Positions 4,678 through 8,363 of a DNA stretch of 64,000 nt are shown piece after piece. The DNA is taken from contig JAFAKN010000006.1 of NCBI GenBank assembly GCA_019235415.1, forward strand, positions 1-64,000. Direction: 5' to 3'. The DNA is from Alphaproteobacteria bacterium (GTDB lineage Bacteria > Pseudomonadota > Alphaproteobacteria > Reyranellales > Reyranellaceae). The notes beneath the pieces are model-generated. The model made no database searches and was not told the DNA's origin. It saw nothing but the letters and a program-made list of their open reading frames with translations. A program made the position numbers and the translations under genes. Positions within the stretch are counted from its first letter, which is position 1. Each line of letters starts with the position of its first letter.

Positions 4678-6750
4678 ATGAACGACATCAAATCCGAGAC
4701 CATCCCTGGAGGCAGACCAGGCAGCGGCGCGCATCGTGTGGTGGCGCTGTGCGGGCCGTACCTCTCGGGCAAGACCAGCCTGCTCGAGAGCATCCTCTAC
4801 GCCACGGGGGCCATCGGCCGGCGCGGGTCGACGCGCGCCGGCACCTCGATCGGCGACGGCGCGCCGGAGGCGCGCAAGCGCGGCATGGGCACCGAGCTCA
4901 ACGTCGCCTCGGTCGACTATCTCGGCGACCAGTGGACCTTCGTCGACGTGCCGGGCTCGATCGAGTTCCAGCACGACGCCTTCGCCGCCCTGGCCGTGTG
5001 CGACGCCGCCGTCGTGGTCTGCGAGCCCGCCCCCGAGCGTGTCGTGGTCCTGGCGCCGCTCCTGAAATACATCGAAGACAACCGCATCCCGCACATCCTG
5101 TTCGTCAACAAGATCGATTCGGCCGAGGTCCGCGTGCGCGACATGATGGCCGCGCTGCAGACGATCTCGACGCGCAAGCTGGTGCTGCGCCAGGTGCCGA
5201 TCCGCCGTGCCGCCGCCAACGGCGCCGACGAGACGGTGGGCTATGTCGACCTCGTGAGCGAGCGCGCCTACCGCTACAAGTCGAGCGGCGCCTCCGACCT
5301 GATCGAGATGCCGGCCGAGCTGCTGCCGCGCGAAAACGAGGCGCGCCGCGAGATGCTGGAAACCCTGTCGGAGTTCGACGACACCCTGCTCGAGCAGCTG
5401 ATCGAGGACATCGCGCCGGAGAAGTCGCTGATCTACCGCGACCTGCACGACGAGTTCGGCGCCGACCAGATCGCGCCCGTGCTGCTCGGCGCCGGCGACC
5501 GCGAGAACGGCGTGCGGCGGCTGTTGAAGGCGCTGCGCCACGACACGCCGTTCGTCGCCAGGACCGCCGAACGCCGCGCCCTGCCGTCGAACGGCGTGGC
5601 GATGCTCGAATGCTTCAAGGTCCTGCACCAGAGCCACGCCGGCAAGCTCTCCCTCTGCCGCGTCTGGTCCGGGACGCTGAGCGAGGGGCAGACCCTGGGC
5701 GGGCAGCGCATCGGCACCTTGCTGCGGCCGTTCGGCCAGCGGCTGGACAAGATCGCCGAGGCCAAGGCGGGCGAGATCGTGGCGCTGGCCAAGGTCGACG
5801 CCCTGTCGGCCGGCCAGACGCTGAGTGCCGCCGGCATCGTCGCCACGGAGGATTTCCCGGCCGCCGAGCCGCCGGTGTTCGGGCTGTCGCTCTCGGCCAA
5901 GAACCGCAACGACGAGGTCAAGCTCACCGCGGCGCTGCAGAAGATCATCGAGGAAGACCCGTCACTCAGCTACGAGCAGCGGGCCGAGACGCACGAGCTC
6001 CTGCTCAAGGGCCAGGGCGAGATGCATCTGAAGGTGGCGATCGACAAGCTTGCCGCCCGCTACAACGTCGCCGTCGAGACGCAGACGCCGCGTGTCGCGT
6101 ATCGCGAGACCATCCAGCTCGGCACGCAGCAGCACGCGCGCTACAAGCGGCAGACCGGCGGCCATGGCCAGTTCGCCGACATCAAGATCGAGATCAAGCC
6201 CCTGCCGCGCGGCTCGGGCTTCCGCTTCGTCGACAAGATCGTAGGCGGCGTGGTGCCGCGCAACTTCATCCCGGCGGTCGAGGAAGGCCTGGGCGAGAAC
6301 CTCAAGGAAGGCCCGCTCGGCCAGCCCGTGGTCGACCTCGAAGTGACGCTGTTCGACGGCCAGTACCATTCGGTCGACAGCTCGGAAATGTCGTTCAAGA
6401 TGGCCGCCCGCATCGCGCTCAGCGAGGGCCTGCCCAAGTGCAAGCCGGTGCTGCTCGAGCCGATCCTCAAGGTGACCGTGGCCGCGCCCAGCGAAGCAAC
6501 GCCGCGCATCCAGCGGCTGATCTCGGGCCGCCGAGGCCAGCTTCTGGGCTATGACGCGCGCGCGGGGTGGAGCGGCTGGGACGAGGTTTCGGCCCTGATG
6601 CCCGAGGCCGAGATCGCCGACATGATCGTCGAGATCCGCTCGGTCACGCAGGGCGTCGGCACCTTCCGCACCGAGTTCGACCATCTGCAGGAGCTGGTCG
6701 GACGCACCGCCGACCGCATCGTCGAGGAGAGCAAGAAGCGGGCTGCCTGA
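4678..6750 (+). CDS. Elongation factor G-like GTPase (EF-G paralog)
   Basis: P-loop GPYLSGKTSL, G4 NKID, EF-G domain IV/V motifs (GQKxx-like GGHGQFADIKIEIKPLPRGSGFRFVDKIVGGVVP; EPILKVTVAAPSE); G3 is DVPGS instead of DTPGH. Confidence 0.9.
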   Translation: MNDIKSETIPGGRPGSGAHRVVALCGPYLSGKTSLLESILYATGAIGRRGSTRAGTSIGDGAPEARKRGMGTELNVASVDYLGDQWTFVDVPGSIEFQHDAFAALAVCDAAVVVCEPAPERVVVLAPLLKYIEDNRIPHILFVNKIDSAEVRVRDMMAALQTISTRKLVLRQVPIRRAAANGADETVGYVDLVSERAYRYKSSGASDLIEMPAELLPRENEARREMLETLSEFDDTLLEQLIEDIAPEKSLIYRDLHDEFGADQIAPVLLGAGDRENGVRRLLKALRHDTPFVARTAERRALPSNGVAMLECFKVLHQSHAGKLSLCRVWSGTLSEGQTLGGQRIGTLLRPFGQRLDKIAEAKAGEIVALAKVDALSAGQTLSAAGIVATEDFPAAEPPVFGLSLSAKNRNDEVKLTAALQKIIEEDPSLSYEQRAETHELLLKGQGEMHLKVAIDKLAARYNVAVETQTPRVAYRETIQLGTQQHARYKRQTGGHGQFADIKIEIKPLPRGSGFRFVDKIVGGVVPRNFIPAVEEGLGENLKEGPLGQPVVDLEVTLFDGQYHSVDSSEMSFKMAARIALSEGLPKCKPVLLEPILKVTVAAPSEATPRIQRLISGRRGQLLGYDARAGWSGWDEVSALMPEAEIADMIVEIRSVTQGVGTFRTEFDHLQELVGRTADRIVEESKKRAA

Positions 6751-6853
6751 CGCTGCTTCACAAGCCGGTGAGAGGGCGCTGCGGCGCCTTCTCCTGGTGC
6801 AGTGCGCTATTCATACTGCTCCCGTGGAACATGTCCCAAGGGAGACCCATCGC

Positions 6854-7300
6854 ATGATCAAGAGAAGGTCCATGGTGATGGCCGGCCTGGCGATGGCCGG
6901 CGCAGCATCATCGACCCGCATCGCGCTCGCCCAGACCGACAAGGGGTCGGGCAAGCCGATGCTGGTGTTCGTCGGCCACGAGCTTTGAGGCGGATGCAAG
7001 ATCTGGCGTGCCCAGTCCGAACCCGCTTTCGTCGCCTCTGACGCCTGCAAGAAGCTCGACTACCGCATCGTCCATCCGGCCAACCAGTCGCTGGTCCTGG
7101 ACGAGGAATATTGGCCGGCCGACGCCAAATGGGTGCGGACCGCCTTCCTCGACAGCGACGAGGGCAAGGCGCGGCCCGACGCCACTCCCCGCTTCATCCT
7201 GGCCCAGAACGGCAAGATCATCCTCGCCGTGACCGGCAATGCCGGCTGGAAAGACCAGATGTGGCCCAAGATCCTGGCGGTCACCGGGACATCGGCTTGA
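6854..7300 (+). CDS. Putative exported thioredoxin-fold selenoprotein (148 aa; Sec encoded by TGA 6986-6988, UGGC motif)
   Basis: ATG 6854 gives a signal peptide MIKRRSMVMAGLAMAGAASSTRIALAQ, then KPMLVFVGHEL-[TGA]-GGCKIWRAQSEPAFVASDACKKLDYRIVHPANQSLVLDEEYWPADAKWVRTAFLDSDEGKARPDATPRFILAQNGKIILAVTGNAGWKDQMWPKILAVTGTSA-stop. Same frame, no other stop; UxxC replaces CxxC; cis-Pro-like ATPRFIL. Confidence 0.8.
6989..7043 (+). promoter_or_regulatory. Candidate bacterial SECIS (bSECIS) stem-loop immediately 3' of in-frame TGA
   Basis: Upper stem CTGG(7003-7006)/CCAG(7012-7015), loop CGTGC; lower CGGA(6991-6994)/TCCG(7016-7019); outer GAGGCG/CGCCTC also possible. Apical loop lies about 18 nt 3' of the TGA. 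Confidence 0.55.
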
Positions 7301-7406
7301 GGGGCGACGCGAGCAGGCGGCGTCAGCGCCGTCACGCCGCGTTGAGCAGGATTGACTTGGCAAGCGACCGGCGGCGCGCCAAGTGGGGCCGCAAAGGAGG
7401 CTTTAC

Positions 7407-8363
<957 letters not shown>

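Follow-up and report, generated by a model that had tools for sequence, protein, structure and literature searches.

The window, the whole 64,000-nucleotide stretch analyzed here, carries on its forward strand at positions 6854 to 7300 a gene that, judging from its sequence and those of its relatives, almost certainly encodes a selenoprotein: a 148-amino-acid product in which an in-frame TGA (6986 to 6988) would specify selenocysteine (Sec) at residue 45, the first position of a UGGC motif, and in which a second TGA (7298 to 7300) is the stop. We assign a probability of about 0.9 to the core of this reading, that is, a selenoprotein of thioredoxin fold whose residue 45 is Sec, a figure that does not apply to each inferred step in how the protein might work. 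Sec had been proposed in an earlier, sequence-only reading of this DNA, and the proposal held on every ground where it could be tested, namely the Sec machinery, the homologues, the recurrence of the TGA, and the ratio of nonsynonymous to synonymous change (dN/dS). Beyond that reading, the analysis yielded a tandem paralogue with serine at the Sec position, a leader hairpin over the Shine-Dalgarno sequence, and a linkage to msrP.

On re-reading the sequence, the frame was as first described: it starts with ATG at 6854, meets the TGA at 6986 to 6988, and continues for 103 sense codons to the TGA at 7298 to 7300, while the residues around the first TGA read KPMLVFVGHEL-U-GGCKIWRAQSEPAF. The N-terminal piece called by the ORF caller (63 amino acids, 6797 to 6988) indeed ends at that TGA, and a Shine-Dalgarno sequence, GGGAG (6840 to 6844), lies 9 nt ahead of the ATG. 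Since the DNA is G+C rich and several other local frames are also open, the length of the open frame is weak evidence in itself; we accept the frame as coding because both the TGA codon and the protein flanking it are conserved across relatives. A scan of GTDB genomes returned 13 loci, with titles naming Reyranella, Rhodospirillales, or Alphaproteobacteria, and all 13 of these first-found relatives have the TGA at the identical codon, followed by a continuous frame with its own stop. Their proteins are 65 to 81% identical to that of the window over the aligned protein (alignment A1), with conservation on either side of the TGA. A read error, which had been named as a way in which the proposal could fail, is ruled out because the TGA recurs at the same codon across genomes.

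Within the genus of the window, which the titles of the relatives point to as Reyranella, an alphaproteobacterium of soil and water, a match to the window protein was found in all 61 genomes sampled; in 57 of them it is full length with one internal TGA, and one more holds a fragment at a contig edge. The exceptions comprise a genome (G387) in which an orthologue with Cys (L081; motif CGFC, with the WRAQSEP block kept) takes the corresponding position in the gene order, a genome (G406, locus L083) in which an EF-G-like gene is followed directly by the Ser paralogue, the Sec gene seemingly having been lost there, and a genome (G429) that gave weaker matches only, all of which suggests that the gene is not essential everywhere. 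When 387 alphaproteobacterial genomes and 399 from the phylum were sampled, the TGA form with the motif was confined to the window's own family, other families contributing distant Cys homologues. The family has a distant UGPC member, also a selenoprotein, at L049:1495-1920 (genome G281), where its gene adjoins one for a BufB-type MNIO maturase (NF050167, below cut-off, in a cut fragment); a second UGPC protein (L088) resembles it, and a UAAC protein was seen at L086.

Among 76 distinct family sequences, the residue aligned with residue 45 is Sec in 37, Ser in 28, and Cys in 11, with no other. Homologues with Cys or Sec at this position, on which the selenoprotein proposal had been made to depend, thus exist, with Ser in addition. 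The 37 Sec sequences divide into 34 with UGGC, 2 with UGPC, and 1 with UAAC, and the Sec codon is TGA in all 34 distinct UGGC genes. Besides CGFC at the same locus, the Cys homologues show CPPC, CPYC, CPTC, CRPC, and CQPC, and the window's own genome has a CPPC homologue at another site (contig C542, locus L080). The codon for C48 (6995 to 6997), the putative resolving cysteine of the UxxC motif, is invariant in all 16 rows of our widest alignment (A5). The Ser form is a tandem paralogue (SEAC and similar) that retains the second Cys; it was found at L018:6084-6518 and at 10 more of the first 13 loci, and a synteny comparison found none at the window's own locus. In a midpoint-rooted tree in which several forks are open, the Ser rows cluster in a single clade (support 100/99) nested among the Sec rows, which is why the simplest history would be that a Sec gene was duplicated in tandem and that one copy then changed from Sec to Ser, TGA to TCA being a single-base change. 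The codon for the second Cys in the Ser rows is TGC in 26 of 28, with one TGT and one TCG; given that Sec became Ser while this Cys was nearly always kept, the Ser copy probably acts as a partner or binding form and not as an ordinary oxidoreductase.

For the UGGC genes, dN/dS comes to 0.30 over residues 33 to 44 and to 0.27 over residues 57 to 148, rather than to the near-neutral value after the TGA that had been named as counterevidence. Residues 46 to 56 show no amino-acid change at all, and synonymous divergence there is 0.16, versus 0.49 further on. Codons 48 to 54 (TGC AAG ATC TGG CGT GCC CAG) are identical in all 34 UGGC genes, while the Ser paralogues vary over the same codons (pS 0.51; Arg codon CGC in 22 of 28), suggesting a constraint on the RNA that disappears where Sec does. 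A candidate SECIS apical hairpin lies at 7000 to 7017 on the forward strand, with 7002 being U17 and 7008 to 7009 being G23U24 when counted from the UGA. In it, G15A16 and C18U19G20G21, separated by the bulged U17, pair with U31C32 and C27C28A29G30, giving an upper stem of 4 bp, 2 bp below the bulge, and a 5-nt loop (C22G23U24G25C26, that is, CGUGC) that has G as its second nucleotide and begins 18 nt after the UGA. U17, G23, and U24 have a role in the SECIS element of Escherichia coli fdhF, and in the fdhF sequence, which we checked, they sit at the same distance from the UGA; by our reading, formate dehydrogenase genes in this genus follow the same U17/G23/U24 register. As for the stem, U16-A31 replaces A16-U31 in L049, L086 has G16-U31, L088 has C at position 17 and an extended stem, and in the Cys orthologue L081 the pairing is gone.

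The hairpin also fits a published model of bacterial SECIS elements in loop length (3 to 9 nt), upper stem (4 to 16 bp), loop G (within the first two positions), and distance (loop 16 to 37 nt after the UGA) (PMC13188914). That model further sets a minimum free energy (MFE) of at most -7.5 kcal/mol (PMC13188914); the 45 nt starting from the UGA reach -13.2 kcal/mol, and the isolated apical hairpin of the UGGC genes reaches -4.3 to -6.0 kcal/mol. The 45-nt stretch folds no better than its shuffles (z -0.58), which gives no support to the idea of a thermodynamically unusual fold. As the MFE is ordinary relative to shuffles, the case for the SECIS element rests on position, codon invariance, and a few compensatory changes. 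An Rfam search of positions 6700 to 7500 returned nothing credible.

The Sec machinery, whose absence had been named as an argument against the proposal, was found across the window's own genome and those of relatives. In the window's own genome, the tRNA-Sec gene (selC; 72 bits, anticodon TCA) sits next to a 3' portion of selB at a contig end (C708), and selD was matched twice; in the closed genome of a relative (G066), selA, selB, and the tRNA-Sec gene are adjacent (L106:2195-5894, minus strand). Only the 3' part of selB was recovered from the window's own genome, the assembly of which is fragmented, and the absent part probably lies in an assembly gap; two candidates for the N-terminal part, on contigs C18 and C631, were discarded as TypA-like and CysN-like on reading. 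Across the genus, selB was found in 58 of 61 genomes, the other three being the window's own and two of 89% and 60% completeness. One further frame deserves mention for itself: a 731-aa open frame (L037:504-2696, minus strand) that contains a selD match preceded, by eye, by a pyridine-nucleotide oxidoreductase part. Also present in the window's own genome is a formate dehydrogenase-N gene of which the contig end leaves the 5' part (L105:750-1354); it has an in-frame TGA (ARI-U-HGPTV) and serves as a positive control for Sec decoding. A search with TIGR01553 found the UGA-type formate dehydrogenase in six of nine genomes, and one with TIGR01591 returned only matches without stops. The Sec-containing enzyme was not found by the TIGR01553 search in G066 and G441, two genomes of one contig each in which selB and the UGGC gene are present.

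Other readings of the TGA have to be weighed against these observations. It might be a true stop, in which case a 44-aa peptide would be made and the frame beyond it would be what is left of a pseudogene or open by chance, as the standard reading of TGA and the halt of the ORF caller would have it and as the unexceptional RNA fold might seem to allow; but the identity of 65 to 81% on either side, the dN/dS of 0.27 after the TGA, its recurrence at the identical codon in 57 of 61 genomes, and the Cys or Ser found there in homologues reduce the chance of this to almost nothing, and pseudogene, read error, and plain stop were all rejected on recurrence and selection. Readthrough of the UGA as another residue, by suppression or a local change of the code, would likewise keep the downstream frame under selection, and one may also think of a selenium-sensing switch whose truncated product is meaningful. 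Against both stand an orthologue with Cys at this very locus, a SECIS-like hairpin that shows a compensatory change and has decayed in that orthologue, the lack of codon constraint in the Ser paralogues, and the presence of the Sec machinery, which together make these readings very improbable. Under the Sec reading, the UGA at 6986 to 6988 would be decoded by SelB and tRNA-Sec with the aid of the hairpin that starts 11 nt downstream.

The predicted fold of the protein is thioredoxin-like. AlphaFold, run on alignment A3, gave a pLDDT of at least 90 for 110 residues, with low confidence mainly in the leader, and the best Foldseek matches of the model are thioredoxins (E 4e-4, probability 1.00); in a weak profile match, the WCPVC of a thioredoxin falls on the UGGC motif. 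Invariant in A5 are C48, W87, P88, P112, R113, and F114. The cis-Pro-like TPRF stretch noticed in the sequence-only reading is therefore real, and P112-R113-F114 (7187 to 7195) would form the cis-Pro loop of the thioredoxin fold, the cis assignment being by homology. Residues 1 to 27 (MIKRRSMVMAGLAMAG...IALAQ; 6854 to 6934) look like a twin-arginine-type signal peptide. A Tat substrate would be expected to show an RR motif, a hydrophobic stretch, and an AxA-type cleavage site; R4 and R5 are invariant in A1, and with a hydrophobic stretch they suggest possible Tat export. The Pfam TAT_signal model matched the paralogue L018 only, weakly and below cut-off (E 0.014).

From these features, we consider an envelope thiol/selenol oxidoreductase somewhat more likely than not. 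The protein would probably be exported folded to the periplasm by way of its leader; there, the selenolate of Sec45 would attack an oxidized substrate (the simplest candidates being a disulfide or a sulfenic acid on an envelope protein), the resulting selenenylsulfide would be resolved by Cys48, and the Sec45/Cys48 pair would regain its reduced state from a membrane thiol donor, as the UxxC motif, the invariant cis-Pro loop, and the fold lead one to expect. It could instead be a selenol peroxidase, reducing peroxides or hypohalous acids, or else a UxxC protein that handles metals, and not mainly a protein thiol/disulfide enzyme. Peroxidases do occur among the known thioredoxin-fold selenoproteins (PMC13188914), the linked msrP encodes an oxidant-repair enzyme, and the present results leave room for such a substrate. 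However, the combination of UxxC, a conserved resolving Cys, and a cis-Pro loop resembles thiol/disulfide enzymes more than GPX or Prx proteins, thioredoxins are the best fold matches, and neither Pfam nor NCBIfam yielded a Prx or GPX family match, all of which makes the peroxidase or metal-handling role rather unlikely.

The neighborhood of the gene is largely constant. Upstream on the forward strand lies the EF-G-like gene (4684 to 6750; Pfam GTP_EFTU and domains III, IV, and C), constant by synteny, and downstream lies msrP (7410 to 8363), for the catalytic subunit of the periplasmic methionine sulfoxide reductase (NF003767, 421 bits versus a cut-off of 207). The usual order in more than 40 loci is EF-G-like gene, Sec gene, Ser paralogue, Mpo1-like gene (PF06127), and msrP, some loci being without the Ser paralogue or the Mpo1-like gene. 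Taken from gene order, a role in the repair of oxidized envelope proteins is possible but doubtful, and the link with msrP may be one of chance neighborhood. Just after the EF-G-like gene, at about 6766 to 6779 and in relatives (alignment A2), lies a conserved TCACAAGGCAGTGA-like stretch; in many relatives a GCCGCC..GGCGGC stem comes next, which may be the terminator of that gene.

Both the Sec and the Ser genes are preceded by a leader element consisting of CATAnT and a 9-bp hairpin that meets the Shine-Dalgarno sequence (alignment A6). In the window, it spans 6808 to 6856 on the forward strand, with CATACT at 6812 to 6817 and an imperfect hairpin at 6820 to 6842, the 3' arm of which runs into the GGGAG sequence. 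In A6, 95.5% of cells pair, seven of nine pairs show changes on both sides, G-U pairs are common, and the covariation score was matched by none of 500 shuffles; the window's copy is weaker, with three of nine positions unpaired. The palindrome was searched with a covariance model (R1), as a strict DNA pattern proved too narrow. In the window's own genome the leader was the sole match (E 0.003), and across eight genomes the model found the Sec/Ser gene pair in seven and otherwise one marginal match. The hairpin probably controls translation of the Sec and Ser genes. A DNA operator of a regulon is less likely, given that the model matches essentially only the Sec/Ser pair and that the stem tolerates G-U pairs; a local operator over the promoter also ranks behind translational control. 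It is tempting to speculate that the Sec protein and its Ser copy form a matched pair, one catalytic and the other holding or trapping substrate, for envelope repair together with MsrP under a private 5' RNA hairpin, and that this family, not formate dehydrogenase, keeps Sec in lineages such as those of G066 and G441, although we regard this combined scheme as improbable.

Within the open-access literature and libraries searched, the protein very probably represents a new selenoprotein family. Against Pfam and NCBIfam (E up to 1), the window protein gave only one unrelated, sub-threshold Pfam match, and 22 members of A3 gave no NCBIfam match of note, the models for UxxC hypothetical selenoproteins included. 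None of the 119 catalogued prokaryotic selenoprotein families corresponds to it (PMC13188914); the earlier remark that it belongs to no named family thus stands for Pfam, NCBIfam, and Table 1 of that catalogue. A literature search on Reyranella and selenoproteins retrieved unrelated papers only. UxxC thioredoxin-like selenoproteins are already known as a kind; what appears to be new is the family itself, together with its Sec/Ser tandem and its private leader hairpin. One genus-wide family in Reyranella would thereby be added to the roughly 119 catalogued (PMC13188914), one whose gene annotation software would truncate at the TGA. A locus that offers Sec, a Cys orthologue, and a Ser paralogue provides a natural series for asking why Sec is kept, and the Ser paralogue a case for what a thioredoxin fold does once its nucleophile is Ser. 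Moreover, as G066 and G441 keep selB and the UGGC gene where formate dehydrogenase, usually the main selenoprotein, is missing in its Sec form, the family may help to explain how the Sec trait is sustained there.

The closest known counterparts are the Sec-containing thioredoxins and thiol:disulfide interchange selenoproteins of PF00085 and PF13098, which carry UxxC (PMC13188914, Table 1). The window protein shares with them the thioredoxin fold, Sec as the first residue of UxxC, the resolving Cys, and the cis-Pro loop, but it matches neither profile, and its distant homologues L044 and L046 (CPTC and CPYC) touch PF13098 only below cut-off. It further differs in its twin-arginine-type signal, its WRAQSEP block, and the conserved W87-P88, the latter two being, to our knowledge, not found in thioredoxins. 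The UGSC-containing protein (NF041046) and GOS_C (NF045500) likewise have a short UxxC motif and no assigned function, yet neither model matched the window protein (E up to 1) or the 22 members of A3. Among the structural matches listed, the closest by target TM-score is the periplasmic thioredoxin SoxS (PDB 3dml and 3d4t; TM 0.66 of the target), by its name presumably a sulfur-oxidation (sox) protein, which is similar in fold and in the probable periplasmic site; unlike SoxS, with which it shares 18% identity, the window protein has Sec in place of Cys, and its gene lies by msrP. Finally, although the stem sequence differs and the loop is the 5-nt CGUGC, the hairpin behind the UGA resembles the SECIS element of E. 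coli fdhF in its bulged U17 and its loop G23-U24, placed at the same distance from the UGA.
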